This document shows positions 5,443 through 40,812 of a DNA stretch of 64,000 nucleotides, piece after piece (the first letter of the stretch is position 1; every line of letters begins with the position of its first letter). Below the pieces are notes generated by a model, which did no database searches, was not told the origin of the DNA, and was given only the letters and a program-made list of their open reading frames with translations. This DNA comes from Muricea muricata (taxonomy: Eukaryota; Cnidaria; Anthozoa; Malacalcyonacea; Plexauridae), in the NCBI GenBank assembly GCA_963855995.1, contig OY979718.1, forward strand, positions 39,121,059-39,185,058, read 5' to 3'. The translations under genes were made by a program, and so were the position numbers.

Positions 5443-5679
5443 CTGCGGAAAAAGTAGTTTTGTCACAAATGAAAGCGATAATGAATTAATTTTATTTGAA
5501 CGACGTTTCGATGTCATCTTTACATAATTTTCAAGTTCATTTAAAGTTCGTTACTACTAGTGTGTTTATATGGCGAGTTCATGATTGCGTAAGCAAATAT
5601 TACATGAAAAAGGCGCGTGCAACTAAAACGCGGCAAAATAAAAGGCTTTAGGAATTACAATTATACTCTACAATTATAT

Positions 5680-6108
<429 letters not shown>

Positions 6109-6749
6109 AATTAGTAATTAAACACATACATAACATAAAAACATGCCAAACTATTAAATGTTTTGTTTGAACAAATACTTTAGCCTGAATCGAGTCAGAT
6201 TGTGTGTTGAGACTGGGCTTGTTTTGTTTAATGTACAGCATCTCATACAGTAAGCAATCATACTTTCCCTGACACTTCCTTAAAACTGAGAAACAGTTTA
6301 CGATCTTTTCAGCATCCTCACCATGCTTTTCTTTCACATGTCTCCCTATCGCTGAATTACGGTGTTCGTTCGATGCGTTGGTGTAGATAGCGGCTCGTGT
6401 ATCCGATATAATCCGCGTCGCACAAATCACATTCAAATTTGTAGACAACGTTTTGTTTGTTGACTAACGGTGGTTTAACTTCGGAAACAGTGAGGTCCTT
6501 TCCAATTTTTCGACTTGTATAAACGGGTTGGATTTTCGTACCGATTACATTCGAAAGGTTTGCTAGTTGTTTCTTGACATCATCGGCTGATTTCTGGTCC
6601 TTGAAAGGCAAGGCAATTCGCAGAACTTTCTGTTTGCTGGATTCTGGATCTTGGTTGGTTGCTTTGTACTGTTGATCAATGAAGGTTGAAATAACTGAGT
6701 CAACCAGGCACGGAGGGTATTTGATTGAAGACGCTCTTTGATCGACTTA

Positions 6750-7548
6750 AATACCCCCGCGCCTGGTTGACTCAGTTATTTCAACCTTCATTGATCAACA
6801 GTACAAAGCAACCAACCAAGATCCAGAATCCAGCAAACAGAAAGTTCTGCGAATTGCCTTGCCTTTCAAGGACCAGAAATCAGCCGTTGATATCAAGAAA
6901 CAACTAGCAAACCTGCCGAATGTAATCGGTACGAAAATCCAACCCGTTTATACAAGTCGAAAAATTGGAAAGGACCTCGCTGTTTCCGAAGTTAAACCAC
7001 CGTGAGTCAACAAACAAAACGTTGTCTACAAATTTGAATGTGATCTGTGCGACGCGGATTATATCGGATACACGAGCCAACATCTACACCAACGCATCGA
7101 CGAACACCGTAATTCAGCGATAGGGAGACATGTGAAAGAAAAGGATGGTGAGGATGCTGAAAAGATCGTAAACTGTTTCTCAGTTTTAAGGAAGTGTCAG
7201 GGAAAGTATGATTGCTTACTGTATGAGATGCTGTACATTAAACAACACAAGCCCAGTCTCAACACACAGTTTGTATGTTATGTATGTGTTTAATTACTAA
7301 TTTATATATATATATACGTATATATGTAACATAATTGTAGAGTATAATTGTAATTCCTAAAGCCTTTTATTTTGCTGCGTTTTAGTTGCACGCGCCCTTT
7401 TCATGTAATTATTTCCTTACGCAATCATGAACTCGCCATATGAACACACTAGTAGTAACGAATTTTAAATGAACTTGAAAATGATGTAAAGATGACATCG
7501 AAACGTCGTCCAAATAAAATTAATTTATTATCGCTTTCATTTGTGACA
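6750..7548 (+). mobile_element. Penelope-like element 3' end, right arm of palindrome
   Basis: A near-identical inverted copy of 5463-6720, separated from it by about 30 bp. It encodes the same C-terminal region on the + strand to about 7283 ([33 protein letters not shown]). The nuclease frame is uninterrupted where the left arm has its extra base, but TGA replaces a Leu codon just before VNKQNVVY. The 3' flank keeps only a short TATATA tract, so the left-arm expansion is derived. Inverted partial copies are typical of Penelope-like insertions. Confidence 0.8.
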
Positions 7549-8284
7549 AAATGTATGTCGAAAGCTTTCCTAAGGAAAAAGTAGTGTTTAATAAATTTGG
7601 ATATTCAGCTATATAGATCAACATGGGGTGCTTTAGTAGTCTTATTAAGCCTGGTTCACACGATGAAGTAAGCATAAGGTTAGCACAAGCACAATAGTGA
7701 CGTTCACACATATAAATAAGTTGCTTGTGCTTGCGCTTACTATGCTTATTTCATCATGTGAAACAGGCTTTACTTTATATGAATTTTTTTTGGGCCCACC
7801 CTGACTGGCTTGATCTATATATATGTAAAAGAAGAGCCCGGACTTTGAGGCAATCAAACCCTTCCAGGGCAGATAAAAAACAGCATGCCCACTGTATGTT
7901 ATTATTATATATTATTAATATATAAGCCAATTTATAATATCCGGATTATAAATTAAAGTTAATGGAGAAATGCTGTTAGCATTGTTCAAAGTTCTTACAT
8001 TTGTTGGAGATTGTCCAAGTGCGGGGAATTTCACGTCGTGCGCAATTGTCAGTCATTAACCTAATGCATCAGCGATCACGCGCTGTGCACGATGCAAACA
8101 TGTGCGCATCATGTCAAATGTAATCCTACAACTAACAAACCGACAATATTGTCTTTGTTGACATTGATCAACCAATAGAAATAGTTTCCGTAGGATATAA
8201 ACGGATGAGGCGCATTTATTAGGTATCAATTTGTTCTAAACTTGAGAGAGATACGATAGGGAGCACGAAATTGTTTCCCCACCC
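7549..8284. other. Non-coding stretch with local inverted repeat
   Basis: At about 7650-7770 the phrases TTCACACGATGAAGTAAGCATAAG and GCTTACTATGCTTATTTCATCATGTGAA form an imperfect inverted pair, suggesting a small MITE of about 120 bp. Nothing else is recognised. Confidence 0.4.
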
Positions 8285-14152: not shown

Positions 14153-14292
14153 TAATAGAGTTGATGTTCTTGGGCATAAATATGTTTTTGACCCTCCTCA
14201 GAGCTCATTTTAACCCTTGCTACGCTCGGGCTAAAATGATTCTGAGTCGGGCCAAAAACATATTTATGCCCACGAACGTCAACTCTATTGTT
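14153..14292. mobile_element. Short foldback element
   Basis: The left arm (AATAGAGTTGATGTTC..GGGCATAAATATGTTTTTG) and right arm (CAAAAACATATTTATGCCC..GAACGTCAACTCTATT) pair over about 45 bp around a 50-bp loop rich in GCTCGGGCTAAAAT. Size and structure fit a MITE. Confidence 0.75.
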
Positions 14293-17008: not shown

Positions 17009-17534
17009 TTATGCAGGTTTGTAGAATATGGACGACGAAAAACAAATACAAGACTAATATTTATAATGGCTGAAATCGCCATCTTATGCCACTGTTCTTA
17101 CCGAGAATTATTAAAGCGGGAGGCATTTAAGTTCGTATTCAAGCTAGTCATGACTCCCGCCTTGCCGACACCTCGCTTTACGGAAAGCGGATAACTCTAC
17201 CCAACTGTAACTTCAAACAACCCTTATGCTGGAATAGCTAAACTTCAGTTACAAAAATTTTGCTGCTCTTCCTGAAATTGTAAACAAAATCTTTACGTGG
17301 TTGTATATGACGCAGTAAGAAATAATGAGAAAAGGTGTTCAACAAAAAATTATGAAGAAACAATCAAATGTTTTCCTCTCATATAATTCTTTAGCCCAAT
17401 TCAAGCTATGAATTTCTTGCCAATGCTTTATTTTGACTTTGGCAAAGTAAGTAGACATGACGAGAAGGCAATATAAACAATCAACTTGAAATTTATAATC
17501 AACGAAACACTGTACAAAGAAAGTATAAAAGAAG
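17009..17534. other. Spacer before the left tRNA-like array
   Basis: No gene or repeat structure seen. Array similarity begins near 17535. Confidence 0.3.
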
Positions 17535-20500
17535 TAGAATTAACTGGAGAATTCACACCAAACGTATACCACTACACGACTCGTTCATGAGCGTATGATC
17601 GGAAGTAAATTATTGGCTTTAACCAATTTGTACTTCATTCTAAGCAAAAATATTTGCAACTGTTTTTACAAAGATTCGAATCAATCCAACTAGTAATTCA
17701 GCCAACAGCCTGTACCACCACGCCACTCGTCTAAGCTTGTGTAATAGAAGGTAAATTATTGATTTTAACTATAATTTGTACTTCATTCTAAGCAAAAACA
17801 TTTGCAACTGTTTTCAGCAAGATTCGAATTAATCCAACTGGAAATTCACCCAACAGCCACGCGTTCGATGCTTGTCTGTCTTGTTTACTAATTTTACTTT
17901 TACTAATTTTTTACGACATTTGAAGGCAAAATAGCTGGTAATAATTGCAATGAGATTTGAACCCATTTAGATGGAAATTCTCCCCAAAGCCTGTACCACT
18001 AGACCACTCGCTCATATTTGTGTAATAGGAGGTAAATTATTGATTTTAGCCAATTTTTTCCTTTAATTTAAGCAAAAATATTTGCAATTGTCTGCAGCAA
18101 GACTTGAACATATCTAACTCGTAATTCATAACAAAGCCTGTACACCACTAGACCGCTCGGGTATACTTGCGTAGCAAGAGGTAAATTATTGATTTTAACC
18201 AATTTTTTCCCTTCAATTTTAGCAAAATTATTGGCAACTGTCTGTTGCGCGATTTGAACCAATCTAACTGGCAATTCCCACCAATGCTTGTACCACTAAA
18301 CCACTAATTGTTGAGGCTTGTGTAGTGTGAGGTAAATTATTGACTTTAACTATTTTTCAACCTCATTTTAATCAAAGCAAAGGATTTTCAAATGTTTACA
18401 GCGAGATTTGAACCAATGTAGCTACTAATTCACACCAAAGCCTGTACCCCTAGACCACTAATTTTTGCTTGTGTGGAGAGGGGTAAATCATTGACTTTAA
18501 ACAATTTTCTACTTCATTTTAAGCAAAAATATTTGCAACCGTCTGCAGCGAGATTTGAACCAATCTATAACTGGTAATTCACACCAAAGCCTTTACCATT
18601 AGACCCCTCGTCCAGGCTTGTGTAAGGGGTTGTAAATTATTGACTTTAGCAAATTTTATTCTTAATATTAAAGCAAAATATTTGCAACGCAATGAAGCGG
18701 GATTCGAACTAATCTAACTGGTAATTGACACCAAAGCCTGTACCACTAGAACACTCGTGCAGGCTTGTATATTGGGCGGTAAATTATTGACTTTAACAAA
18801 TTTTATTTTTAATATTAAAGCAAAGTTTTTACAACATTATGAAGCGGGATTCGAACCAATCTAACTGGCAATTCACACCAAAGCTTGTACCACAAGACCA
18901 CTTGTTGAGGCTTGTGTAGTGTGAGGGCAAGCAAATTATTGACTTTAACTCTTTTTCAACAGCATTTTAATCAAGCCAAAAGATTTTCAAATGTCTACAG
19001 CGAGATTTGAACCAATGTAGCTACTAATTCACACCAAAGCCTTTACCCCTAGACCACTAGTTTTTGCATGTGTGGTGAGGGGTATATCATTGACTTTAAA
19101 CAATTTTCTACTCTATTTTAAGCAAAAATATTTGCAATTGCCTGCAGCGAGATTTGAACCAATCTACAACTGGTAATTCACACCAAAGCCTGTACCACTA
19201 GAACACTCGTCCAGGCTTGTATATTGGGCGGTAAATTATTGACTTTAACAAATTTTATTTTTAATATTAAAGCAAAGTTTTTGCAACATTATGAAGCGGG
19301 ATTCGAACCAATCTAACTGGCAATTCACACCAAAGCTTGTACCACAAGACCACTTGTTGAGGCTTGTGTAGTGTGAGGGCAAGCAAATTATTGACTTTAA
19401 CTCTTTTTCAACAGCATTTTAATCAAGCCAAAAGATTTTCAAATGTCTACAGCGAGATTTGAACCAATGTAGCTACTAATTCACACCAAAGTCTTTACCC
19501 CTAGACCACTAGTTTTTGCATGTGTGGTGAGGGGTATATCATTGACTTTAAACAATTTTCTACTCTATTTTAAGCAAAAATATTTGCAATTGCCTGCAGC
19601 GAGATTTGAACCAATCTACAACTGGTAATTCACACCAAAGCCTGTACCACTTGACCACTCGTCCAGACTTGTGCATGGGGTGGTAAATTATTGACTTTAC
19701 CAAATTTTATTCTTAATATTAAAGCAAAATATTTGCAACGCAATGAAGCGGGATTCGAACCAATCTAACTGGCAATTCACACCAAAGCTTGTACCACTAG
19801 ACCACTTGTTGAGGCTTGGGTAGTGTGAGGTAAATTATTGACTTTAACTATTTTTCAACCTCATTTTAATCTAGCCAAACGATTTTCAAATGTCTACAGC
19901 AAGATTTGAACCAATGTAGGTACTAATTCACACCAAAGCCTCCACCGCTAGACCACTAGTTTTTGCTTGTGTGGAGAGGGGTAAATCATTGACTTTAAAC
20001 AATTTTCTACTTCATTTGAAGCAAAAATATTTGCAACCGTCTGCAGCGAGATTTGAACCAATCTATAACTGGTAATTCACACCAAAGCCTTTACCACTAG
20101 ACCCTTCGTCCAGCCTTGTGTAAGGGGTGGTAAATTATTGACTTTAGCAAATTTTATTCTTAATATTAAAGCAAAAAAATTTGCAACATTATGAAGCGGC
20201 AAGCAAATTATTGACTTTAACTATTTTTCAACCTCATTTTAATCTAGCCAAACGATTTTCAAATGTCTACAGCGAGATTTGAACCAATGTAGGTACTAAT
20301 TCACACTAAAGCCCCTACCGCTAGACCACTAGTTTTTGCTTGTGTGGAGAGGGGTAAATCATTGACTTTAAACAATTTTCTACTTCATTTGAAGCAAAAA
20401 TATTTGCAATTGCCTGCAGCGAGATTTGAACCAATCTGTAACTGGTAACTCGCACCAAAGCCTGTACTACTAGACCACTCGTTCAGACTTGTGCAGGGAG

Positions 20501-20830
20501 TGGTAAATTATTTATTTTAGCAAATTTTATTCTTAATTTTAAAGCAAAATATTAGCAATTATATAAGCAAGCAGCGAGATTTGAACCAATCTAACTGGTT
20601 ATTGACACTAAAGCCTGTACCACTACACCGCTCGTGCATACTTGCGCAGTAGGAGGTAAATTATTGATTTTAGCCAATTTTTTCCTTCAATTTAAGCAAA
20701 ATTATTGGCAACTGTGTGTTGCGAGATTTGAACCAAATTAAAGGGTAAGTGACACCAAAGCCTGTACCATTAGACCACTCGTTCATGATTGCCTAATGAG
20801 TGGTAGATTATTGACTTTAACCATTTTTGC
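17535..20830 (-). repeat. Tandem array of tRNA-like monomers, left array (- strand polarity)
   Basis: About 22 diverged monomers of roughly 130-185 bp. Read on the - strand, each has a tRNA-like part: TGGTCTAGTGG (a good pol III A box, identical to the A-box region of metazoan tRNA-Glu), then CTTTGGTGTGAATT, then GGTTCAAATCTCGCT (a B-box-like sequence), followed by a spacer containing TTTGCTTAAAATGAAGTA and AAAGTCAATAATTTACC. Several monomer types alternate: AAACTAGTGGTCTAGGGG with ACATTTGAAAATC; AACAAGTGGTCTAGTGG with TCGAATCCCGCTTCAT; and GACGAGTGGTCTAGTGG with CTGCAGACAGTTGC. This produces a higher-order repeat of about 450-560 bp; for example about 18800-19230 closely matches about 19230-19670. 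Confidence 0.9.
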
Positions 20831-20859
20831 CTGCCCATCTAAAGGCTGTACCTGGGCCT

Positions 20860-20910
20860 GATCCTAACACTAACCCTACCCTTACCCTAACCCTAATCCT
20901 TCACAACTGC
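20860..20910. repeat. Degenerate telomere-type repeat
   Basis: Runs of CCCTAACC, CCCTACCC and CCCTTACCC phrases at the inner edge of the left array. On the opposite polarity, GGGTCAGGGTTGGGGTTTGGG follows at about 20998-21020. The metazoan telomere unit is TTAGGG, so this is interstitial and imperfect. Confidence 0.65.
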
Positions 20911-20930
20911 ACCCCTCGCTCATGGTCACC

Positions 20931-21110
20931 CGATCCGAGCGTTGTATCCCACTAAAATTATTGTCTCCAATAAATTACTGGGATTGTTAGGGTCAGGGTT
21001 GGGGTTTGGGTCAGGGTTCATTTTATATGCATGAAATGACAATTCCAGTAACTATTGGGATTATCAAACGTTGTAACCAGTAATTTTATTGGGATACAAC
21101 GTTCGGATCG
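20931..21110. mobile_element. Inverted-repeat element around telomere-type sequence
   Basis: The left arm CGATCCGAGCGTTGTATCCC..TAAAATTATT pairs with the right arm AATTTTATTGGGATACAACG..CGGATCG. The loop contains GGGTTAGGGTC-like telomeric words. It resembles a small foldback element. Confidence 0.65.
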
Positions 21111-21206
21111 GTTGTCATGGTTGATCATGTTTTACAAAAACAAGATAGATCTTGTCCTGCCATTAATATAAAATTATTTTTCATCGAGAAGTCGTGTTCG
21201 CAAATT

Positions 21207-21572
21207 TCGAAATCGTAGACAGCCAGTAGCATCGTTGATGGTCAGTCGCATCATTGATCTCTTTCCTAGGCGTAAGTGTTGTTGCGTTTTAATATTTTAA
21301 ATAATTAAATCCCTGACCCTAAACCCAAATCGTATAAAAGTTGAAACAAGTCAAGAAAAAAATGTTTGGTGAAATTTAAAAATAAACAGGCCACAGCCGG
21401 AATGCGAACCCCTGCTTGTTTTGCTAGAAATCACACGCCAAGACGACTGAGTTAACAACGAGTTAGCGGGAAACCGTGAAAACAATTTCTATTTCTAATA
21501 AAACGTCATCTAATTGAGACCAGAGCAGTCTGGGAACGAGATCAATGATGCGACTGACTGTCTACGGTTTCG
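21207..21572. mobile_element. Inverted-repeat element enclosing a tRNA-like sequence
   Basis: Arms share TCGAAATCGTAGACAG and GTCAGTCGCATCATTGATCT with the complement at 21538-21572. The left arm has an extra about 19 bp. The enclosed - strand sequence has an A-box-like TTAACTCAGTCGTC (21442-21455) and a B-box-like GGGGTTCGCATTCC (complement of about 21399-21412) at tRNA spacing. No cloverleaf acceptor stem pairs well, so this is tRNA-like only. Confidence 0.55.
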
Positions 21573-21754
21573 ACATTAGCATGTATGTCAGAAACATCTC
21601 CCCCTCTTGAACCCATATATGATAGCTACACATTAAACGCAACTTGTAGCAAGGCGGTCGTCAACAAAAATTTAACGAAATAAAGTATGATTTTGTGAAT
21701 ACACCACCTAAATTTACTATCGCAAATCTTTCGATCCGTAAATGAGGATATTAA

Positions 21755-21890
21755 AATAAGGTAAAAAATTGGTTGAAATCAATAATTTACCTACCTCTCA
21801 CTACACAGGCATGAACCAGTGGTCTGGTAGTACTGGCTTAGATGTAAATTACCAGTTAGATAAGTTCAAATTTCGCTGCCGGCAGTTTCA
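21755..21890 (+). repeat. Isolated tRNA-like monomer on the + strand
   Basis: Contains TCAATAATTTACC, then GAACCAGTGGTCTGGTAGTA and AATTACCAGTTAGATAAGTTC, then TTTCGCTGCCGGCAG. It is a single monomer of the array family inside the core and has the orientation of the right array, so the polarity switch lies between 20830 and 21755. Confidence 0.75.
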
Positions 21891-22204
21891 AACGTTTTAA
21901 TTGGCTTCTTCGTGTTTGCTTGTTGGATAAAGGTCGCAACGCATGAGTACTCTTTATAATCTCTTTCCGAAACAAACACGAAGCAACTCGTGATATGCTG
22001 TTTTCGCAAAGAAAATACACAATTATTAATCAAAGGACTGAAACTTGCAATGAAATAAGTTTCTTGTTTGAAAAAAACAAAAAGACACTTACGGGTAAAG
22101 AGTCTCATTCGTTATCCTGCATTTGACACTCCAGAGTCAAGTGTCACGCTTCTTTCTTTAACCAAAATTTGACACTGCATAGACAGGTGTTCCTCTTCTC
22201 TCGT

Positions 22205-22206
22205 AC

Positions 22207-22242
<36 letters not shown>

Positions 22243-23122
22243 TAAAAATATTTGAAAACGGTTACCCTTCACGGCACATAGGCACCTGATTTTCAAGGGG
22301 CCGTTTGTTACACACTATTACACTCTAATATATCACACTATTATATAATTACATCATTTACTATATATTTTTACACACGCTAAATATTATTAAATTTAAA
22401 AACCCTATTTACAAAAGTTATATTGAATCAGGTGCTGCCAAGAATACATTTAAATTTGTTGAGGCTAATGCCTTTTTCTTTGGCTGTACTCGATAAGCCA
22501 TTCCAAAGCGACGCAGCTGAGTAAATAAATAAAAGCTTTTCATCATAAAGTTTGTTTTTGGCTTTCCAAGTAGCTACGTAATTGTTGTTATTACTTCGCA
22601 AGTCATACCGATCATTAGTTTTAATTTTAAACAGGTTAGTTAAAGATGATGGCATTATGTCGTTTCTTACTTTGTGCATGAAAATCGTCTTATTGACTTT
22701 ATAACGTTGCTTCAAGGCTTTCCAGTTTAATTCCTTTAGAACGTCATCGCTGCTTGCATCGTATGTTCTACCAGTGATAATTCTCGCAGCTCTGTTTTGT
22801 AATTTTTGTAGTTTATTGGTCAAGTACTCGCAGCAGTTGTCCCAAACCAAGCTACAATAGTCAAAGTGTGATAGCACAATATGGCATTATGTATTCTCAA
22901 TAATGTTGATTTGGGAACGAACTGTCTTATTCGCCGCAACATTCCTATTCCTTTTGAAACGTTCGTGACAACATTTTGAATTTGATCGTTCCAAGAAAGG
23001 TGCTCATCAATAATGATGCCTAGAGTTTTGGATTTGTTAACCCTTTTGATTACGGACTCACCAAGTTCAATTTTAGGATCAGTTATAATATTTGGTATAC
23101 GCTGTCGCGAGCCAATAATCAT
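22205..23122 (-). mobile_element. CR1/Jockey-type LINE 3' fragment with (AAT)n tail
   Basis: On the - strand, 23122 to 22428 encodes the C-terminal end of a LINE reverse transcriptase: KTLGIIIDEHLSWNDQI, then (after a frame break near 22860) LSHFDYCSLVWDNCCEYL, LQNRAARIITG and a terminal SLWNGLSS region with stop. These are standard thumb and C-terminal motifs of non-LTR elements. The 3' end carries a trinucleotide tail (TTA repeats at 22209-22243 as read on +). The catalytic core is missing, so the copy is 5'-truncated and dead. Confidence 0.85.
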
Positions 23123-23309
23123 GTATTCACTTATAAAGAACTGCGCTTATTACAAGTATCTTAGTATAAAGAAGTGAACTTATTACAAGGATCTCCTTCT
23201 TTCTTTTCCCAACCGATTTGACACTCCACAGGCAAGTGTCTTTTTCCCATCCACCACACTTGAATTCAATTGAATTCATACTCAAATTCAAATTCAATCT
23301 GCAAAGAAC

Positions 23310-24120
23310 AACGAAAATAGAATAACGCTTAAATTCAGTCAAAAATGACGGGAGATCCGTCTGAGATTTCCTGCCAGTGTGAATGAAATTCGTTTGTAAA
23401 TCGTACATTTGTGCAGACACAACTGTGCCCTACATCACATGGCTTACTGGTTTTGCCTTCTTCTTTAGTTACCAACTACGTAAACTATGTGTCATTGATG
23501 TACTTTCCGCTTTTTTGGTACGAAGCATATTTTTCCATGTTTGGTACGTACCTGAGCAACGTTATTTTGCCGTATACTATGGTATATATAAAACACAACA
23601 CTCGTCGCAGATCATTGTTGCACAATAACGCTCAAATTCATTTAAAAATGACAAAAGATCCTTCTAAGATTTTCCGCCAGTGTGAATGAAATTCGTTTGT
23701 AAATCGTACATTTATGCAGATACAACTGTGCGCAACATCCTATGACCAACTGGCTACGCACTCTCTTTGGTTAGCTTTGCTGAAGAAATTAATACCCGTT
23801 AAAGAACTATGTATTTGTCATTGACAAACTTCCGCCCTTTTTCCTACGAGCATATGCTCGATCAATGGTGCAAAAGGCTTCTTCCAGAAGTTTTGACAAA
23901 GACCATGAACGTGGCGAAGCGCGAACGGCCTTATTTGTTAAATGCTATAGTATATAAAACACAACACTCGTCATATCAGAGCAATCATTGTTGGACAATA
24001 AACGCTCAAATTCATTCAAAGATCGCAGAAGACCCAACTAAGATTTCCTTCCAATACGAATGAAATTCGCCTCTAAATCACACGTGTATGCTGACACAGC
24101 TGTGCCCAACATCATATAAA
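23310..24120 (+). repeat. Three imperfect tandem copies with TATA boxes and a 13-codon frame
   Basis: Copies begin at about 23310, 23625 and 23992 and share ACGCTYAAATTCA, GATTTCC, AATGAAATTCG..TAAATC, and ACAACTGTGC. Copies two and three are preceded by TATATAAAACACAACACTCG (TATA-like element at about 23583 and 23950). Copies one and two contain a 42-nt frame (23345-23386 and 23648-23689) encoding M-T-x-D-P-S-x-I-x-x-Q-C-E. Copy three keeps the same reading and stop but has lost the ATG. Repeat structure is certain; expression of the tiny frame is speculation. Confidence 0.7.
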
Positions 24121-24420
24121 ACTAACTGACTATACGCCCCATCTTTTGTTCACTTTGCTGAAGCGTTTTATGCAAGTTACCAACAACATAATTATGTGTC
24201 ATCAACTCTCTTTACTTTTGCTTCATTGTCCTGAAGAAGGATCAACTTGCAGAAATTCACTAACATTTGCTTACATAAATATGCTCAGCACACATGATGC
24301 GCGGTAGCTGTCTCTTATGTAGGACCACCGCAGACGTCAACATCTAGCAATCGCATTTCAGTTCCGGAGAATGTTTGTAATGTCGAGGAAATGATTTGAC
24401 ACCCTCCGTGTGATTATAAT

Positions 24421-24770
24421 TACAGTTGCAACACTACTGTTGCAAATGCAATGATCGCACAGAGGATGTTGTTGATGTAAACGATCAGCTTAAGTAGTAT
24501 AACCTGGCTTTGGAACTCTCGCTTTCGGTTGCAACTGTAGTTATCACACGAAGAATGTTATGGATGTAGCAAGATGAAGAGATTTTGTAATGAAGCCGGC
24601 TTTGCGAACTCAAGACTTCGGTTGCAACTGTAGTCATCGCACGGAGGATGTTATGGATGTAACAATATGAAAAGATTTTGTAATGAAGCCCGCTTTGGAA
24701 CAATTGACTTCAGTTGCAACTGCTGTCATGGCATGAAGGATGTTAATGATGCTGCAAGATCTACTTAGTT
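24421..24770. repeat. Four tandem copies of a roughly 93-bp unit
   Basis: GTTGCAAC phrases at about 24424, 24528, 24621 and 24714 head units that share TGTAGTCATCGCAC, GGATGTTATGGATGTA, AAGAGATTTTGTAATGAAGC and GGCTTTGGAAC. Units two and three are most alike. No coding function is evident. Confidence 0.8.
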
Positions 24771-25499
24771 ACAAGACGTTTGATGGTTATGTACAAGTAT
24801 GACCATCGGATAGATCGAACTCAGTGGATCAGGTCAGCCGACTCCAAAAAAACCAATATTCTTTTAGGAAAGAGCCATTGCACGAAAAATGTTGTCAATT
24901 CGAAAAACAGTTTCTAAATGAATTTCATCGCATTCATTGTGAAAATTATCCACTTTTTGTCAAAAATCGAAATTTTTTACTGCGTGTCAAAGAATAAAAA
25001 CAAACTCTGATGTTAAACTATCTTAAGGTGTGCACATCCCCCAACGGTTTTTTGTGAATGCCAAGTGAAATACCAGGCTTTAAATAAAGTTAAAAAATTG
25101 CTTAAATAATTTACAACGTATTCCCAAACACGAATGAATGATGTAAGGTTAAACGGTTTAGGAGCGTTACCTATTGGTAATTACCTCTCGCCTTTATCAC
25201 GTTTCTATTATGAATGCACCGCATCATCCGTTATGACCCAATGTCAACGGTAAGGTGAAACAAAGTCTAATCCAGTTTAGGTACGCAATACATGCATTTT
25301 CGTAATTTATGAAGTTTGAACACACCTTTCTCTAGTCACCCCATTTAAGAATTGCCCTCCCTCTAGCCCTAACCCTAGCCCTAATCCTAACTCTAACCCT
25401 AACCCTACTTTACAAGTACTTTACTTCATTTTACAAGTATTTTAGGGTTAGTGTTCGAATTAGGCTGAACAAAACTTTTTTACTCTATAATTTACATCA
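24771..25499. other. Core spacer with interstitial telomere-type repeat
   Basis: At about 25363-25415 there is a run of CCCTAGCCC, CCCTAATCC and CCCTAACCC units, followed by TTTAGGGTTAGTGTT near 25440. The rest shows no gene. Confidence 0.6.
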
Positions 25500-27226
25500 T
25501 ATACTCAAGCATGAACGAGTAGTGGTCTAGTGGTATCATATTTCGTGTCCAATTCTCAGTAATTGCAAATATTTTGCCTTAAAATGAAGTAAAAAATTGG
25601 TAAATGTCAATAATTTACGTGGCCCTAAACAAGTAAGAACCAGTGACCTAGTGGTGCAAGTTTAGGTCCAAATTATCATTTAGATTGGTTGAAATTTTGA
25701 TGCAGACTGCTTTAAAGTGAAGTAAAAAATTGGTTAAAGTCAATATTTTACCTCTCACCACACATGAGCAAGTGGATAACATGAACGAGTGGGCTAGTGG
25801 TACAGATTTGCAGACAGTTGAAACTATTGTGGCTTAAAAAGGAAGTAAAATATTGGTTGAAATCAATCATTTACCGCCGACTGTACAGCCATGAACGAGT
25901 AGTGGTCTAGTGGTACAGGATTTTGTGGCTGTTGCAAATATTTTTGTTTAAATGAAGTAAAAAATTCATTTGGTTAAAGTAAATAATTTACCGCCTCGCA
26001 AGCAAGCATGAAAGAGTAGGCTACGGGTACAGACTTTGTTCTGAATTACTAGTTAAATTGTTTAAAATCTCGCTGCAGACAATTGCAAATATTTTTGCTT
26101 AAAATGAAGTAAAAAATTGTTTAAAGTCAATGATTTACCCTTCTCCACACAAGCAAACGCTAGAGTAGTCTAGGGGTGAAGGCTTTGGTGTGAATAGCTC
26201 CATTGGTTCAAATCTCGCTATAGACAATTGACAATCGTTTGGCTTGATTAAGGTGAGGTTGAAAAATAGTTAAAGTCAACAATTTACCTCACAATACGCA
26301 AGCCTAGCATAGATTGGTTCAAATCTCGCTGAAGCCAGTTGCAAACATCTTTGCTTAAAATGAAGTAGAAAATTGTTTAAAGTCAATGATTTACCCCTCT
26401 ATGCACAAGCAAAAACTAGTGGTCTAGAAGTATAGGCTTTGGTGTGAATTGCCAGTTAGACTGGTTTGAAGGCTTCATGTAGTCGCAAATATTTTGCTTT
26501 AAGATTAAGAATAAAATTTCTTTAGTCAATAATTTACCAGCCACTGCACAAGCCTGGACGGGTGGTCTAGTGGTGCAGGCTTTGGTGTGATTTGGCAGTT
26601 AGATTGGTTCAAATCTCACTGTAGGCAGTTGCAAATGTTTTTGCTTAAAATGAAGTAGAAAATTCTTTAAAGTCAATGATTTACCCCTCTTCGCATAAGC
26701 AAAAACTAGTGGTGTAGGGGTACCTGCTTTGGTGTGAATTAGTAGTTACATTGGTTCAAATCTCGCTGTAACCATTTTGAAATTCGTTTAGCTTCATTAA
26801 AATGAGGTTGAAAATAGTTAAAGTCAATAATTTACCTCACACTACACAAGCCTCAACAAGTGGTCTGGTGGTACCAGCTTTGGTATGAATTGCCAGTTAG
26901 ATTGGTTCGAAGGCGTCATATAGTCGCAAATATTTTGCTTTAAGATTAAGAATAAAATTTGCTTTAGTCAAAAATTTACCAGGTACTGCACAAGCCTGGA
27001 CGGGTGGTCTAGTGGTACAGGCTTTGGTGTGAATTGGCAGTTAGATTGGTTCAAAACTCGCTTTAAGCAGTTGCAAATACTTTTGCTTAAAATGAAGTAG
27101 AAAATTGTTTAAAGTCAATGATTTACCCATCTACCCACAAGCAAAAACTAGTGGTCTAGGGGTATAGGCTTTGGTATGAATTGCCAGTTAGAATGGTTCG
27201 AATCCCGCTTCATATAATTGCAGTTA

Positions 27227-27815
27227 TTATACATTGCAGTTGCTTTATGCGCTGTAATTGGTCAATTGCATACAGATAAATGCGACTATCACGCAATCTG
27301 CTGATAACTCAGTTATCTGCTAGCAGATAATTGAGTTATTTGCATGTTGAGCCTACGGTATTCGTTGGCATCAATGGTTGGCATGGCAACAACATTTTTT
27401 CTCTCGATATTTTCTGTCTCATGTTATGGCATCTCGCCGAAGACGAAATTTGTCAATTGCTTGAGGAAAAAGACTCCGAAAACACATGCAAAAGAACATA
27501 TAAAGTCCCTCAACAAGTGTTTCATGAATATTTGTTGGAAAAGGGGATTGCAGAACAGCGAAATTGCTCGAGAAAAGCGAAATTGCCCGAGTTTTAAAAA
27601 GGTTTTAGAAAGAGAAATCTATTCTTTCGTTACCATGTTTATTTTCTCCGCTTACAATGTATAATAAAACAATAATCGGATTCGGTTTTTGTGATATGCG
27701 GAATTATCAATGTCTCGGTAAGAGTTATCTGCCTCGCCTTCGTCTCGGCTGATAACTCTTACCTCGACGTTGATAATTCTGCATATCACAAAAACCTCAT
27801 CCAATAATTTTTTAT
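27227..27815 (+). mobile_element. Insertion in the array with tyrosine-recombinase-like fragment
   Basis: Comparing with the uninterrupted monomer near 30920 (ATAATTGCAATTATTTTGC) shows that about 590 bp interrupt the right array here; TTATT may be duplicated. A + frame (about 27430-27597) encodes CQLLEEKDSENTCKRTYKV and QQVFHEYLLEKGI. This resembles the N-terminal SAM-like core-binding segment of KIAA1958/Crypton-type tyrosine recombinases. The catalytic domain is absent. The 3' part is a long hairpin (GGTTTTTGTGATATGC.. and ..GCATATCACAAAAACC, 27687-27797) with TAAGAGTTATC / GATAACTCTTA inside. Probably a non-autonomous derivative. Confidence 0.5.
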
Positions 27816-29746
27816 TATTTTGCTTTAAGATTAAGAATAAAATTTGTTAAATTCAATAATTTACCACCCACTGCACAAGCCTGGACGAGTGGTCTAGTGG
27901 TACAGGCTTTGGTGCGAATTACCATTTATAGATTGGTTCAAATTTCGCTGCAGATGCAGTTGCAAATATTTTTGCTTAAAATGAAGTAGAAAATTGTTTA
28001 AAGTCAATGATTTACCCCTCTCCACACAAGCAAAAACTAGTGGTCTAGGGGAACAGGCTTTGGTGTGAATTAGTAGCTACATTGGTTCAACTCTCCCTGC
28101 TGACATTTGAAAAAATGGCTTGATTAAAATGAGGTTGAAAAATAGTAAAAGTCAATAATTTACTTCACGCTACACAAGCTTCAACAAGTGGTCTAGTGGT
28201 ACGAGCTTTGGTTTGAATTACCAATTAGATTGCGTCGAATCCCGCTTCATTTAAAATTTGATAAAGTCATTATTTTACCATCCACTACAAGCTTGGACGA
28301 GTGGTAGAGGCTTTGGTTTGAATTACCAGTTAGATTGGTTCAAATCTCACTGCAGACAGTTGCAAATGTTTTTGCTTAAAATTAAGCAGAAAATTGTTTA
28401 AAGACAATGATTTGCCCTTCTCCACAAAAGCAAAAACTATTGGTCTAGGGGTACAGGCTTTGGTGTGAATTAGTAGCTACATTGGTTCAAATCTCGCTGT
28501 AGACATTTGAAAATCGTTTGGCTTGATTAAAATGACGTTGAAAAATAGTTAAAGTCAATAATTTACCTCACACTACACGAGCCTCAACAAGTGGTTCGAA
28601 TCCCCCTTCATATATTGCAAATATTTTGCTTCAAGATTAAGCATAAAATTTGCTAAAGTTAATAATTTACCACCTACTGCACAAGCCTGGACGAGTAATT
28701 TAGTGGTACAGGCTTTGGTTTGAATTACCAGTTAGATTTTTTCAAATCTCGCTGCAGACAGTGGCAAATATTTTTGCTTAAAATGAAGTAGAAAATTCTT
28801 TAAAGTCAATGAATTACCCCTCTCCCCATAAGGAAAAACTAGTGGTGTAGGGGTACCTGCTTTGGTGTGAAATAGTAGTCACATTGGTTCAAATCTCGCT
28901 GTAAACATTTGAAATTCGTTTGGCTTCATTAAAATGAGGTTGAAAATAAATAAAGTCAATAATTTACCTCACACTACACAACAAGTGATCTAGTGGTACC
29001 AGCTTTGGTATGAATTGCCAGTTTGACTGGTTCGAAGGCTTCATATAGTCGCAAATATTTTGCTTTAAGATTAAGAATAAAATTTGCTTTAGTCAATAAT
29101 TTACCAGCCACTGCACAAGCCTGGACGGGTGGTCTAGTTGTGCAGGCTTTCGTGTGAATTGCCAGTTAGATTGATTCAAATCTCGCTGCAGACAGTTGTA
29201 AATGTTTTTGCTTAAAATGAAGTAGAAAATTGTTTAAAGTCAATGATTTACCCCTCTCTACACAAGCAAAAACTAATTGTCTAGGGGTACAGGCTTTGGT
29301 GTGAATTAGTATCTACATTGTTTCAACTCTCGCTGTAAATTCTTGCAAATTGTTTGGTTTGATTAAAATGACGTTGAAAAATAGTTAAAGTAAATAATTT
29401 ACCTCACACTACACGAGCCTCAACAAGTGGTCTAGTGGTACGAGCTTTGGTGTGAATTGCCAGTTAGGTTGGTTCGAATCCCCCTTCATATGTTGCAAAT
29501 ATTTTGCTTCAAGATTAAGCTTAAAATTTGCTAAAGTTAATAATTTACCACCTACTGCTCAAGCCTGGACGAGTGTTCTAGTGGTACAGGCTTTGGTGGG
29601 AATTACCAGTTTGATTGGTTCAAATCTCGCTGCAGACAGTGGCAAATATTTTTGCATAAAATGAAGTAGAAAATTCTTTAAAGTCAATGATTTACCCCTC
29701 TCCGCATAAGCAAAAACTAGTGGTGTTGGGGTACCTGCTTTGGTGT

Positions 29747-30009
29747 GTGTTCTGTCCCCCCGGGGGATAAAATATTGTATTTCGCCTTTCGCGCCATTTT
29801 TGGCTCATCCTCAGCTCCCATTGGCTGTGGCCCGAGCCAGGGGAAGACTACCCCGACATCATTGTTGTATTTTTTCTGGCCTCGAGAAGCACTCTTTTTT
29901 CACCTGTTTTAAAAACTATTAAACGTTGAAATACACGTGAGTTTTTCTTCGGTTACACTGCTGATGAAGGGCCCCAATACTCAAACGGGGTCCGAAGGAT
30001 CAGAATAGT
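29747..30009 (+). mobile_element. Short insertion in the array ending in a hammerhead-like hairpin
   Basis: About 260 bp interrupt a monomer between TTTGGTGTG and TGTGAATTAG, with TGTG duplicated. The insert begins TTCTGTCCCCCCGGGGG and ends with CTGATGAAGGGCCCC, AATACTCAAAC, GGGGTCCGAAGGATCAG. CTGATGA plus a strong stem matches part of a hammerhead core, but the second box is GAAG instead of GAAA. It is GC-richer than the array, consistent with a later transposition. Confidence 0.5.
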
Positions 30010-31075
30010 GTGAATTAGTAGTTTCATTGGTTCAAATCTCGCTGTAAACATTTGAAATTCGTTTGGTTTCATTAAAATGAGGTTGAAAATAGTTAAAGTC
30101 AATAATTTACCTCACACTACACAAGCCTCAACTAGTGGTCTAGTGGTACCAGCTTTGGTATGAATTGCCAGTTAGACTGGTTCGAAGGCTTCATATAGTC
30201 GCAAATACTTTGCTTTAAGATTAAGAATAAAATTTCTTTAGTCAATAATTTACCAGCCACTGCACAAGCCTGGACGGGTGGTCTAGTGGTGCAGGCTTTG
30301 GTGTGAATTGGCAGTTAGATTGGTTCAAATCTCACTGTAGGCAGTCGCAAATGTTTTTGCTTAAAATGAAATAGAAAATTCTTTAAAGTCAATGATTTAC
30401 CCCTCCCCGCTTAAGCAAAAACTAGTGGTGTAGGGGTACCTACTTCGGCGTGAATTAGTAGTTACATTTGTTCCAATCTCGCTGTAAACATTAGAAATTC
30501 GTTTGGCTACATTAAAATGAGGTTGAAAATAGTTAAAGTCAATAATTTACTTCACACTACACAAGCCTCAACAAGTGGTCTAGTGGTACCAGCTTTGGTA
30601 TGAATTGCCAGTTAGATTGGTTCGAAGGCGTCATATAGTCGCAAATATTTTGCTTTAAGATTAAGAATAAAATTTGCTTTAGTCAATAATTTACCAGTTA
30701 CTGCACAAGCCTGGACGGGTGGTCTAGTGATACAGGCTTTGGTGTGAATTGGCAGTTAGATTGGTTCAAATCTCGCTGTAGGCAGTTGCAAATGTTTTTG
30801 CTTAAAATGAAGTAGAAAATTGTTTAAAGTCAATGATTTACCTTTCTACCAACAAGCAAGGGCTCTAGGGGTATAGGTTTTGGTGTGAATTGCCAGTTAG
30901 ATTGGTTCGAATCCCGCTTCATATAATTGCAATTATTTTGCTTTAAGATTAAGAATAAAATTTGTTAAAGTCAATAATTTACCACCCACTACGCAAGCGT
31001 GAACGAGTGGCCTAGTGGTACAGGCGTTGGTGGGAGTTACCAATGAGACTGGTTCGATTCTCTCTGCAGACATCA

Positions 31076-34000
31076 GCCTGCCTGCAGACCCTCATTAAAC
31101 ATGTTAATTAGGATTAAAATTGGTTCAAATAATGTAAGTCTCTGGTTACAACCTGACGGAATTAATGTGTCACATTTGATAAGTTTTTATTGAAAATGTC
31201 TGATGTCCGAACTGCCCCTTGGTGGCTTGGTCTTTCTTGCTACCCGGAAATTGTCGACTTACGTGCGCGCTGCTTTCGGATTATTCCGTTACGGTGCGGA
31301 GCTTTCCGAATGACGAACTTCTTTCTCGTGGCGAAAATTACCTCGAAAATTGCTGTTGAAATTCTAAAAGTTTATTGTGTAAATCCTCGTTCAACTTCAA
31401 GGTAAAATGCTTTATTTTACATTATTGGTTGTAGCAGAGTATCTCTTTGGCTATTAGGGATTGTTTTTGGGAGCAACAAGCTTGGACTGAGCGACATATT
31501 TCGTTTTAAGCGTTGCACGTTTGGAACTGCTTCGCTTTATAGGTATATTTTATATGGTACATGGTTGGTAATTATTCGTTTAATCATATTCCAATAATGA
31601 TATTTTAAGAAGGGTCGAAAATTTACAGCTTTTTTTTGAGTGGTTTAAAACCAAGCAGGAGAGTATGGAATTTGCATACCAGAGATATTTTGGTGTTGCC
31701 CCAGTTGCACAAATTTGTAATTTGACAAAATTGGTCGCAATACGTATTCTTCAAATATATCAAAATTGTCTGCCTGATATAGAGATATCCCAGTTGCACA
31801 GTTTCCTCCTCACGTTGCACTGGGCATGAAAGTATTTCTCTTGCATATCTGTGAACTGGTTTCACATTCTTGCACACCGGTCTCATAAAAAATGCTGTGT
31901 CAAATTCACATGCAATGGATATATTTCAGGGATGATTATTAGAAGATTTTTTCAAAACAAAAATCTTCTCAATTCTTACAATCATTATAACAAGATTTGA
32001 GACAATATAGGAAGATTTTCGACTTTGAAATAAGAATGTGATGACATCATCAATTTACATCTAACCTTTATCCTATTACCCTGACAACTAGAACTGGAAC
32101 ACAAAATGATTTGGTGTGACAGATTATGTGACATTTCATAAAACATTAACAATGTACGTACATACTAAGTGAGAGAAATGTAGACTTCTTAAAGAGTATA
32201 CAGGAAGTTCATGGAGCAATCATAGTTACTTGAATTGAAGTTTGAAGCAACTTCATAAATGAAATTATGCAATGTCTTAAAAATTACCCAGAGTTAGTGC
32301 AAGAAACCATTAGATTTTTGCCAAGTCCTTTTCAAATGCAATAAAATATTTTATGGCAGATCTATGATAAATTGGTAAAAGGACTGTCTGTACATTGCTT
32401 AAAAGACCCCTTAAAAAATGTAACCTTAGCAAAATTCTCATAAATCTTTCTAGATATATGGTACATTTTATGCTTTCCTGAAGAATTGTTGATGATGAAA
32501 AAGTTGTTCATTCAAAATCATAAATAAAAGGTATATAATGGTTACAGCTGTGTCAATAGAACAAGTCCTGAAAATTGCTGTTGATGTCAGTTCATTTTGT
32601 AACATTGAGAAGCTCATTTGATCAACTCTGCAATATTTTTCAGATGTTCCTCAAAAAATGCCCTACTTCCTGTTATATGCCAATCATTAATTCATTTTAG
32701 TTATCTTTTAGCTTGTCCATGATTTTACCCGTTTGGCCTCACAATGGCTCTTTCTATGTGCTACCTGTCTTTATTTAGAGCATTTGCATTTTACATTGAA
32801 ATCAGTTGAAATTTTGCATGCATTACTGTACCACTGGTCTCTTATGAATAAACTAACTGTGGACATGCCTCGTTATGGTTGGAAAAACCTACAGGGGGTT
32901 GCCAAAAAAAGAGCCCCCTTCGAAAATGGCTTTCTTGGTTTATAATGACTATAAATAAGGATAATGTTAAACAAAGTTGTGTTAGTTACCTGTGTGTTAG
33001 TATAAACAAAAATTGCAATTCTTACTCAAATGTTTGACAAACAGGTGCATTTGGCGAGTTTTTAAAATAAATTCAAAATGGTGGTTTTGAATCGGAAACT
33101 TGCTAATGTAATTAAATTATTTCTTCAGCACATGCTTCTCTGCATTGATATTTCATAAATGACAAGGGGGGATGTGACGATAAATGTATGCAAATTATTA
33201 CTTTCAGGCAGAAATGTTTTATAGCTTTTTCCTCGACTATGAGGTAGAATTTTACTTCCAAATCCCCAATCCAGAAATTAGAAACCAACTGTCGATGATT
33301 GTTTGCTTCAAGACTGAGACTTTTTTGTTAACACAGCATTTCGATTACTCTATGAGTACATCGGGTACTGATACATCACACGATAGGTCAACCAACTGAC
33401 TAAAACATAAAGTAAGTGTGGCCTTGGAGTTATTGTTAATTTTGCCAATAAGAAAAGCACCTGCCCAAATGAATCGCATTGTAGTGGTGCATTCTTTTAA
33501 AGGCATCTTTTTGTACATGAAATAATTACAATAACTATTACGCTACAATGTGCTTTCACATTTTGACCCGCATTACTGAGTAGACTTTGATCATATTGCT
33601 GAATTTTAGGTTCAAAATCACCATCTTTAATTTGGTTTAAAACTCATTAAATGGATCTGTTAATAAATATTTAAGTAAAATTTGCAATTAATGCTTGTTA
33701 TTACACACAGATACCTATGCAAGAACAAAAGCACAACTTTTGTCAACATTCTTCTTATTCACAGTGATTATAAACAAGGTAAGCCATTTTTGAAGGGGTT
33801 GAAATTTTTCATGCATCACTGTACCACTGGTCTCTTATGAATAAACTAACTTTGGACTTTTCTCGTTTTGGCTGGACAAGTTTATGTAGGACTTGTTGTA
33901 ACATTTTCCTCATTGTTAATTGTACCGGTACCTGAAATTTTGAAAATGTAGAAACTGTGTTGAAATTCTTTGTAACTTGACCTTTGAAATACTGACCCAA

Positions 34001-38083: not shown

Positions 38084-40558
38084 GTAGCCGGCGAAGAGAA
38101 GACCAACCTTGCAAATGCTAATGCAAATTGCTAAGTTGATCTTCTCCAGAGAGCAGCCGCGCGTACCTAACAAATTAAAACAACTAACGTTAGTGATTTA
38201 AGTACTTAGCATGCATATTTGATTCCCAAAGCCAAAATGACAAGTGCCCCCCGCTGATCCTACCAACTTCCTACCTGCCTCAGTTCTAAGCTGTCTTCCT
38301 CGGTCCTAAACTCCTGCATTCCATTCGTTACCCTCACATTCCTTACAATCGCACAGTCACTCACAGCTGATAAACCCACATGCACCACCACCACCCCGAC
38401 TGCCACCCAAATACGAAAATTAAAAGAATTAAAAGTTTGGTAAAGTATGCTATGCCTACTGAATTTAATTTATTCGGATATTTTAGGCCAAACAGAAACA
38501 TCAAGATCTCATATACAAACAGGTAAACTGCCTACTCCTTTTGCCTTTGTTAAAATATACAAACTTAAACTTAAACCAGCAGTTATATGTCCCTAACAAT
38601 ATTAATTTTAAAAGAAAATTCTAGACCGAGCTTATTGAAACTTATCTGTTTTGTTGGAAACAATTATTGATTCTGGTTTTTTAACATACTTCTAAAATTT
38701 TAATTCCTTTAATTAGCCTATAACCCCATGCAACTTACACGCGACGCACACCCTCGCATTCCATACATTTAGCTAATAAATTACGTTATAAACAAAAAAG
38801 TAAAATAAAAAAATAAATTACGTTATCTCTAGCTACTTACACCCACTTAGTCTGAGTTTTTGATCGTGTTTCAAGACGAAAAACCTTAGCTGAAAAGGCA
38901 TGGGCTTTGTGTTGTGTTAACTGGTCCGAAGCAAATAGAAACCTAATCCTTACCAATGTATGAGGCTGGGTGAAATAAGCATGAGAATACAAAGAGTATA
39001 AATTAGTTTGATTTGAAAGTCTTTAAAAGCTGAGACGCAACTGAAGTTTTTTTTCATGTCTCATCTATAAGAATTTTGGTTCAGAATGCAATTCAAGGAC
39101 CGTACAGCTAGGTGCAATACAAAAGATCGAAATATGTTAAAACTTTACCGTAATTTTCATACTTATTTAACCGAAACGCCCTCATTGCATGGTACGATGC
39201 AGCTGCTCTCAAGCCACTTGCGTTATTTGCTTTAGTGCACAAAAACAATAGATTAATTGTTCCATTGTTCCTGCTTGCCAAAACAAACCCAAAAGCACCA
39301 AGATACTTATCATATTTAAGTCAAAGAGGATTCTCATTATAAATTTAAGTCTGCACCATGAATTACCATGAAAATAAAGCAAGCTGTGTTTTTCCCATGG
39401 GAATTTCAAATGAGCAAAAAAATATAATGAATACATACTATTTTCATGCACGCATGTATGGTAAATTGAGCTAAGAAACAAAGAAATAGTATATTCCCTT
39501 GGGAATTTAATCTGATAAAGACACAATACTTCTATTCAACGTTAATCCAACGTAATAAGTGACATGCTTTATTTTGTATTGTTCATGCTAATTGCGTGCG
39601 TGAACGTATTGTTTCTTTCAAAAAACACTGTCATTATTGACCACTTATTTTCACCTGATTTTTTAACTTGAAAATTGAAACCAAAACGAAAGTGTCATTT
39701 TTCAAAACTTGGAAACTTAAAACATTCCACATCGTTCATTTCTTCACATGCATTAACTCGAGTATCAACCTGGTCACTCAATTTGTCTCTTTTTTTCAAC
39801 CAGAAGCAATTTTGTCAGTGAGAAACAATAAAAAATAACCTAATCTCCTCTTTGATCTCTTAATAATAAGTATCTTGTTCTCTACTAACTTGTAAATTAC
39901 CACTACTTTCTATTCCAATGTCACGTCTTCTCATTCTTGAATATTGTTATTGTTTGTGGGTCAATGCCGTACAGGATCGTTCATTCTGATCTTCTTTTAC
40001 GTTTCTTCACATCCCATCACCTTTTGAAAGAAAAGAATCGATTAGATCACAATTACCATAAATTACAAGCTATGATATTGTAAAAAATAAGTACAGAAGT
40101 GGAAAGGTCGTACTCGGGGGGGGGGGGGGGGCAGCACGCAGGTCATTGTCGCTGAAGGCAATCTTTCACTCAAGATTTGCAATCTTTTCCATTTAGAAAA
40201 TATAAGAACCGAGTCATTACACTGCTTGTAATACTATCCGCTTAGGTTTAATCAATATATGTAAATTGGATAAAGATTTTGCCCTGATTTACATAGACTT
40301 TAAGTTAATTTTTTAACCAAATATCACTTAGATCTTTGAGATTATGAAAGAATACGAACGTTTTCATCCAGACATTTTATAATCGGATCTACAGCCTCTA
40401 GCATTTGTAAATCAGATGCAGATGAGCTGCCCATGCTTTATCTGTTATAGAAATGTTGACCAGTATAGATAATTAGTTTTAGATTAATTTCGTTAGTAAA
40501 TAATGGTTTTCGAGGATTCTGATTGGTTGCCTGACTACTAAATATGAAGCATTATGGT
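38084..40558. other. Non-coding stretch
   Basis: A pure G run lies at about 40118-40131. Nothing coding or structured is supported otherwise. Confidence 0.3.
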
Positions 40559-40812
40559 GATAGCTAAAGGAGATAGACGAGAGGTAGGTTTTCAAGATAG
40601 CGGATGTTTTTTAAAATTTTTAAAACGAGAACGAATCAACAACCAGACAGTTAAGCATTCCTGATGAATTGGGGTTAGGTTTAGGATAAGGGTTAGGGTG
40701 AGCTTATTAGGAATGTTATAAATCTCTGGTGTTGATTCGTTCTCGTTTTAAGAATCTTGAAAAACAGCCGCCATCTTGAAAACCTACCTCTCGTCCATCC
40801 CCGTTAGCCATG
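40559..40812. mobile_element. Foldback element with about 80-bp arms and telomere-like loop
   Basis: Left arm GACGAGAGGTAGGTTTTCAAGATAGCGG.. AAAACGAGAACGAATCAAC and right arm GTTGATTCGTTCTCGTTTT.. CCGCCATCTTGAAAACCTAC..CTCTCGTC are reverse complements. The loop reads GGGGTTAGGTTTAGGATAAG, then GGTTAGGGT, again telomere-like words inside a foldback. Confidence 0.75.

Follow-up and report, generated by a model that had tools for sequence, protein, structure and literature searches.

A satellite of probable tRNA ancestry with a three-monomer order in two opposed arrays of Muricea muricata

When the units of a tandem array carry promoter boxes for RNA polymerase III (pol III), are they kept as working units, or are the boxes a legacy of the sequence from which the array arose? 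This question is raised by a 64,000-nt stretch of the genome of the anthozoan Muricea muricata (GenBank assembly GCA_963855995.1, contig OY979718.1, positions 39,121,059 to 39,185,058 of the forward strand), here called the window and numbered from its first letter, in which monomers of ~147 bp resembling transfer RNA (tRNA) are repeated in tandem. An earlier sequence-only reading had offered two answers: a short interspersed element (SINE) or tRNA that became a satellite, or an array of pol III units that is retained for some reason. Our analysis indicates that the repeat is probably a locally amplified, decaying tRNA-derived satellite, shaped by unequal exchange, that inherited its pol III boxes. 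This explanation builds on the monomers and their orientation, the trimer order, duplications within the arrays, chimeric monomers, and the decay of the A box and stems, all of which were observed in the window.

A monomer profile was built from 29 hand-cut monomers and searched over the window with nhmmer at a cut-off of E<=1e-2. It gave 60 matches, none outside 17542-31073. Two monomers were each split over two matches, one by an internal deletion (28552/28591) and one by an insertion (29680/30008), and after merging there were ~58 monomers, counting partial copies. Of these, 23 lie on the minus strand (17542-20817), a single copy stands by itself on the plus strand (21751-21898), and the other 34 occupy the plus strand at 25485-31073. 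The three parts of the locus are as follows.

17542-20817, minus strand: array 1, 23 monomer matches (profile search)
21751-21898, plus strand: lone isolated monomer of 148 bp between the arrays (profile search; extent from self-BLAST)
25485-31073, plus strand: array 2, 36 matches, ~34 monomers (profile search)

The two arrays are oppositely oriented and point apart. They are separated by ~4.7 kb that holds the lone monomer, a fragment resembling a long interspersed element (LINE) and short palindromic elements. Within the arrays the monomers stand head to tail at near-constant length, as in a satellite, both by the profile search and by Tandem Repeats Finder, which was run separately and gave periods that include 147, 452 and 434. 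Self-BLAST of the window found no further common sequence beyond the monomers at the array edges, a comparison that involves two arrays only.

The monomers are of distinct types. Average-linkage clustering of the 53 matches of at least 100 columns, cut at five clusters, produced three large clusters of 25, 13 and 12 members that cycle along both arrays. A lag analysis of this cycling was blurred by dropped partial monomers, and the order was tested instead by scoring each monomer, head and tail separately, with three type profiles. The succession of types proved to be B-C-A in both arrays, a trimer of ~450 bp (3 x 147-151) that is shorter where its constituent monomers carry deletions.

about 18349 to 20515, minus strand: B-C-A trimers of array 1, with one extra chimeric B/A monomer at 18649 and one partial A
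from 26524, plus strand: B-C-A series of array 2, with chimeric C/A monomers at 27111 and 30826

B-C-A successions made up 13 of 20 in array 1, where permutations averaged 6.6 and 47 of 20,000 were as high. When array 2 was taken together with the lone copy, they made up 26 of 34 (permutation mean 11.6; 0 of 20,000 as high). Type-core lists were hand-picked from the clusters and comprised 32 of the 60 matches for identity and 35 of the 60 for within-type mismatch. In the 32 core monomers, identity between monomers of the same type was 0.904 within an array and 0.882 between arrays, and that between different types was 0.731 and 0.733. The arrays hold distinct types in a fixed order, with copies of one type more alike than neighbours, as is expected of a higher-order satellite. 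As same-type copies are this alike across the arrays (0.882 against 0.731-0.733), the trimer is older than the separation of the arrays. Much of what the sequence-only reading had described was recovered here, namely more than 50 monomers in two arrays (the lone plus-strand copy is among our ~58), at least three types alternating in fixed order, and a higher-order periodicity, seen in both the Tandem Repeats Finder periods and the permutation tests. Its higher-order unit of 450-560 bp holds at ~450 bp and does not reach up to 560 bp.

The arrays also retain traces of how they grew. In the pairs compared, neighbouring trimers were 86.8% to 98.0% identical, and similarity extends to longer blocks in array 2, in which another same-phase pair was 90.8% identical. 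Two poorly aligned pairs, 18349-18794 with 18796-19246 (299 columns) and 19551-19996 with 28263-28655 (255 columns), were given no weight.

18796-19246, minus strand: higher-order trimer, 98.0% identical to 19248-19698
19248-19698, minus strand: its partner trimer in the 98.0% pair (alignment)
26379-27230, plus strand: multi-monomer segment of ~850 bp, 93.7% identical to 30095-30965 over 845 aligned columns
30095-30965, plus strand: the other copy of the ~850-bp segment, 93.7% identical to 26379-27230
25485-26120, plus strand: decayed monomers of array 2 (profile search, type scoring)

Judged from the alignment, the first pair represents a recent duplication at the scale of the trimer. Several monomers are chimeric: those at 26379, 27111 and 30826 in array 2 join a C head to an A tail, and one clear case in array 1, at 18649, joins a B head to an A tail. 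Such monomers appear to mark exchange inside monomers. Unequal exchange is an established mode of satellite evolution. Monomers at the edges are diverged and their type calls are weak; in array 1 this was observed at both edges.

Evidence for tRNA ancestry comes from the boxes and from the stems between them. The consensus of the A box is TRGYNNARNGG and that of the B box GGTTCRANYC, and we scored as an exact pair an A and a B box that match these at a spacing of 34-60. There were 20 exact pairs, every one within the arrays and on the sense strand; none was found outside the arrays, on the antisense strand or in 100 Markov-resampled controls. When each box was allowed one mismatch, the arrays held 47 pairs and the rest of the window one (control mean 0.25). 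The boxes are therefore at tRNA spacing, as in other tRNA-derived repeats, and this part of the claim that each monomer carries both boxes at such spacing stands, but some monomers have lost one or both; the two are exact together in 20 of the 48 testable monomers. The monomer consensus reads ...GAACGAG TGGTCTAGTGG TACAGGCT TTGGTGTGAATTACCAG TTAGATT GGTTCAAATCTCGC..., and cloverleaf traces extend beyond its boxes, again as in tRNA-derived repeats. With offsets from the A box set as in a canonical tRNA, the D stem pairs at 4/4 bp and the anticodon stem at 5/5 bp, the latter closing a 7-nt loop with U33 and with GAA in the place of the anticodon; the T stem keeps 3/5 pairs and the acceptor 3/7. 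In an ungapped scan, the nine stem pairs with U33 occurred at 17 of 127,780 window positions, of which 4 are array monomers. By eye, the D arm is presumably of the Glu/Asp/Gly type. What would identify a functional tRNA gene array, that is, recognition by a tRNA finder and an intact cloverleaf, was not found: ARAGORN detected no tRNA gene in the window, Rfam matched nothing in the window at the gathering threshold, and no tRNA family appeared among Rfam matches up to E=10 for 17400-31200 and one trimer. Because the consensus keeps D- and anticodon-stem complementarity, we consider it likely, as a strong inference, that the monomer descends from a tRNA or the head of a tRNA-type SINE and has long been decaying.

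Whether the boxes are still under selection was judged mainly from rates of change. Parsimony changes counted on a tree of 53 monomers were 3.91 per site in the A box, 2.73 in the B box and 1.88 in the AAAGTCAATAATTTACC block of the spacer, with 3.74 over all sites. When the boxes were shifted step by step around the unit, a rate as low as that of the A box was reached at 86 of 146 positions and one as low as that of the B box at 29 of 146; for the AAAGTCAATAATTTACC block there was one such position, its own. This count and the first conservation table were anchored at the conserved block, where end mismatches are trimmed and columns 1-3 are flattered, and parsimony was counted anew on 55 monomers in a rotated frame. 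There the rate relative to the mean was 1.08 for the A box (94 of 147 shifts as low), 0.70 for the B box (30 of 147) and 0.61 for GTCAATAATTTACC (7 of 147 shifts and 374 of 20,000 base-matched site sets as low). For the 11-bp B box, 1,588 of 20,000 such sets were as low. The slowest 14-bp stretch still lay within the conserved block, though it was less extreme. Within types (35 of the 60 matches), mismatch was 0.061 in the A box, 0.039 in the block and 0.035 in the ten columns before it, with 0.064 overall. A promoter-style mask, which allows transitions where the promoter consensus permits them, was kept at the A box in 28 of 55 monomers, against a mean of 0.33 for slid positions, 21 of 135 of which were as high. 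Pairing of the anticodon stem equals the shuffle mean (0.848), and since pairing slid by -3 also reaches 0.81, a pairing percentage is by itself weak evidence. Damage to the B box was observed to have been multiplied:

26820-26962, plus strand: A-type monomer with a 3-nt deletion damaging the B box (alignment)

The same deletion is present in the monomers starting at 26379, 28953, 30095 and 30536, making five in all, spread through array 2. It removes the last two consensus positions and leaves GGTTCGA (GGTTTGA in one).

Overall, the A box shows no sign of constraint and the RNA fold little; the B box gives a moderate conservation signal, and a block outside the tRNA part gives a similar or stronger one. 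Several results nevertheless weigh against reading the boxes purely as a legacy. Relative to the mean, the core of the B box has a rate of 0.49, and 7 of 147 shifts in the rotated frame are as low. Mismatch within types was 0.032 in the B box, the lowest of nine segments counted (overall 0.064; Fisher p 0.006), and slow change was likewise seen in the spacer block (Fisher p 0.015); both p-values are too optimistic because the copies are related by duplication. The mask was kept at the B box in 34 of 56 monomers, where slid positions averaged 0.28 and 5 of 135, the box itself among them, were as high; in the rotated frame it was kept in 34 of 53 (slid mean 0.26; 3 of 137 as high). D-stem pairing is slightly above that of shuffles (0.854 vs 0.825; 1 of 1000 as high). 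Of 53 units examined, 35 have a run of at least four T within 45 nt after the B box, and in 21 the run lies exactly 22 nt from it, in a count where the script misplaced the B box in a few units; across the 64 kb, 39% of 45-nt windows hold such a run. Finally, the damaged B boxes may not be dead, because GGTTCGA remains. Retention of promoter boxes above background is thus absent for the A box, and present for the B box on some measures and not on others. The sequence-only reading had expected both boxes to exceed the spacer in conservation, of which half was found: no excess at the A box, a slower B box, and a spacer block as slow or slower by most measures.

If the boxes were kept for transcription, each unit would be expected to yield a small RNA running from upstream of the A box to the T-run ~22 nt past the B box. 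The 20 exact box pairs, the slow B box and the excess of T-runs at that distance (35 of 53 units, 21 at 22 nt, against the 39% background) are consistent with such working units, but the A box is conserved no better than average, anticodon-stem pairing equals the shuffle mean, most type-C units (10 of 13) have no T-run, and amplification has extended to a sublineage whose B box is damaged. We therefore regard working pol III units as improbable, and the A box and the amplified sublineage tell against the suggestion that the array is kept for a reason; there is no clear sign that the satellite would be maintained as working RNA genes. TFIIIC-only sites and B-box insulators are known, and the B boxes, the GAAAATT...TAAAGTCAATAATTTACC block or both could be kept as boundary-like binding sites for TFIIIC or another protein rather than for transcription. 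It would fit that change is slowest in the B box and this block and average in the A box. Against it, the locus is single, the copies are not independent and the effect is modest; the 11-bp B box is unremarkable by parsimony on the shifts and site sets given above (29/146, 30/147; 1,588/20,000), and monomers with damaged B boxes were amplified. We find a binding satellite doubtful, and its more explicit form, in which the arrays would be clustered sites that bind TFIIIC at the B boxes and another factor at the GAAAATT...TAAAGTCAATAATTTACC block and so make up a boundary-like element, somewhat unlikelier still. If this boundary-like reading were true, the A box and the RNA would no longer matter, and the trimer order would have arisen as a side effect of amplification.

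A special case of the tRNA-derived satellite that we prefer is strict derivation from a SINE, part of a dispersed tRNA-SINE having become tandem as in the squamate satellites sSat1-3. The tRNA-like head with A and B boxes and the one lone 148-bp copy between the arrays point this way, as do a monomer within the sSat unit range of 70-290 nt and subvariants that alternate as in sSats (excerpted text of PMC10702118). However, the monomer profile found no parent SINE in the 64 kb, self-BLAST showed array ends without common sequence beyond the monomers, and by eye neither a SINE tail nor a target duplication accompanies the lone copy. A SINE origin is accordingly a serious possibility to which we give somewhat less than even weight; of the origin proposed earlier, a tRNA-derived satellite with higher-order structure stands, and the SINE part is unproven, with one lone monomer outside the arrays. 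Far less credible, and rejected here, is an array of hammerhead-ribozyme retrozymes. Retrozyme-type elements with tandem units have been reported in animal genomes (excerpted text of PMC7229834), and the units here are tandem, but no hammerhead family was among the Rfam matches, and the core motif with GAAA directly after it occurred once, on the antisense strand of array 2, and on neither sense strand; a ribozyme in each unit was thus not found by Rfam or by the core-motif search.

The preferred reading, a tRNA-derived satellite, places the repeat beside several known systems. In alpha satellite, diverged monomer types are repeated as a block and older monomers lie at the edges. Both features are shared by the M. 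muricata repeat, which differs in having only ~58 monomers and neighbouring trimers that are 87-98% identical, not nearly uniform. The reptile satellites sSat1-3 have units of 70-290 nt that go back to a tRNA-derived SINE, and the snake unit includes box B; cobra sSats have a mean identity of 82-91% by locus size, and in two snakes up to 25% of the long loci show two or three alternating subvariants (excerpted text of PMC10702118). The likeness lies in a tRNA-derived tandem unit with a promoter box and in alternating subvariants; for sSat1-3, however, the parent SINE is known and the terminal unit of most arrays runs on to the SINE end, neither of which was seen here, whereas here three types hold one order in two arrays (PMC10702118, same excerpts). 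SINEs are indeed dispersed, as the sequence-only reading argued in setting this repeat apart from a standard SINE pattern, yet for satellites the pattern is not exceptional, since SINE-derived ones with alternating subvariants have been published (PMC10702118). The amphibian pol III satellites summarised in the same excerpts (Xenopus OAX, Cynops PolIII/TAN, Rana/polIII and Hydromantes Hy/polIII) are also tandem units with a tRNA-like stretch and an unproven SINE parent, and for Hy/polIII even a tRNA origin is doubted; their units are longer (about 200-360 nt, OAX longer still) than the ~147 bp here, PolIII/TAN is transcribable in vitro, and a trimer order is not mentioned for them in those excerpts (PMC10702118). 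The satellite PcH-Sat of the limpet Patella is an invertebrate satellite traced to a tRNA-type SINE, but its unit corresponds to the 3' part of the SINE, without boxes A and B, whereas here the boxes are the recognisable part (excerpted text of PMC11121367). Among the best-ranked, mostly open-access literature matches we found no account of this satellite, and likewise none of a trimeric tRNA-derived satellite in cnidarians; satellites and SINEs have been reported from zoantharians, such a unit not being among them in the excerpted text of PMC10586311. Pattern searches of contig collections gave three viral-contig loci (L001-L003) for one pattern, rejected as unmatched by the monomer profile (best E 0.16), and nothing in the prokaryote and virus contigs for a second, longer pattern, a negative that says little because the collections searched hold prokaryotes and viruses.

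Array 2 is interrupted by two insertions.

27231-27815, no strand assigned: insertion of ~585 bp that interrupts array 2 (approximate ends); a palindrome lies at 27656-27823
29748-30007, no strand assigned: 260-bp insertion in a C monomer, flanked by the 5-bp duplication GTGTG, with ends TGTTCTG...CAGAATA

By eye, the second looks like a solo long terminal repeat. MIR2630, the best Rfam match (27657-27823, both strands), is well below the gathering score and was rejected; it falls on the palindromic insertion, not on a monomer. A short element with inverted ends (CCGATCCGAGCGTTGTATCCCA.. / ..TGGGATACAACGTTCGGATCGG, by eye) at 20855-21120 adjoins the inner edge of array 1, with CCCTAA and TTAGGG telomere-like stretches inside or beside it, and a CCCTAA-like stretch and a palindrome lie at 25355-25464, near the inner edge of array 2. 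Between the arrays, 22428-23146 (minus strand) is by eye the 3' part of a LINE-like element, followed by a TAT microsatellite at 22209-22242. The two open reading frames (ORFs) of this fragment matched no Pfam family, and there were 385 related proteins, the best 120 of the 385 at 39-99% identity. Short duplicated or tandem units (~300 and ~93 bp) were also observed between the arrays at 23321-24202 and 24429-24760. Elsewhere in the window, a large inverted repeat (6201-7268 and 5458-7551; 95.6% over 1,075 bp by self-BLAST) lies close to long TA microsatellites and carries ORF fragments (VYKFECDLC..) mirrored on both strands, for one of which Pfam gave nothing. A LINE in pieces at 48917-51298 (minus strand) has ORFs for endonuclease (PF03372) and reverse transcriptase (PF00078). 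Pfam was run on 10 of the 43 listed window ORFs, and 3 matched. Two further protein searches gave 244 and 2 matches; among the 120 listed of the 244, two distant ones are from Paramuricea clavata. Palindromic repeats, 77-85% self-complementary by self-BLAST, were found at 45699-46201, 40556-40815, 14154-14289 and 58307-58471.

We propose that the ~147-bp monomer arose from a tRNA-derived sequence, either a tRNA gene or the head of a tRNA-SINE, together with an AT-rich spacer. A short tandem run would have diverged into three types, after which unequal exchange would have copied the B-C-A trimer as one piece and, at a later stage, larger segments. Once the trimer had formed, an inversion or inverted duplication may have left the two arrays pointing apart. 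Monomers at the edges would have escaped homogenisation and decayed, and mobile elements inserted. The pol III boxes would be a legacy of the tRNA ancestor, probably without function, and any transcription incidental.

The satellite adds a further example to a known kind of repeat, and what is distinctive is its strict three-type order in two opposed arrays. A single 14-kb locus shows recent duplications of the trimer, chimeric monomers, edges that have decayed and a partner array in inverted orientation, and so offers a compact, readable example of a tRNA-derived unit turning into a satellite with a three-monomer order. It also separates the presence of pol III boxes from selection that would keep them, as the B box and a spacer block are slow and the A box is not.

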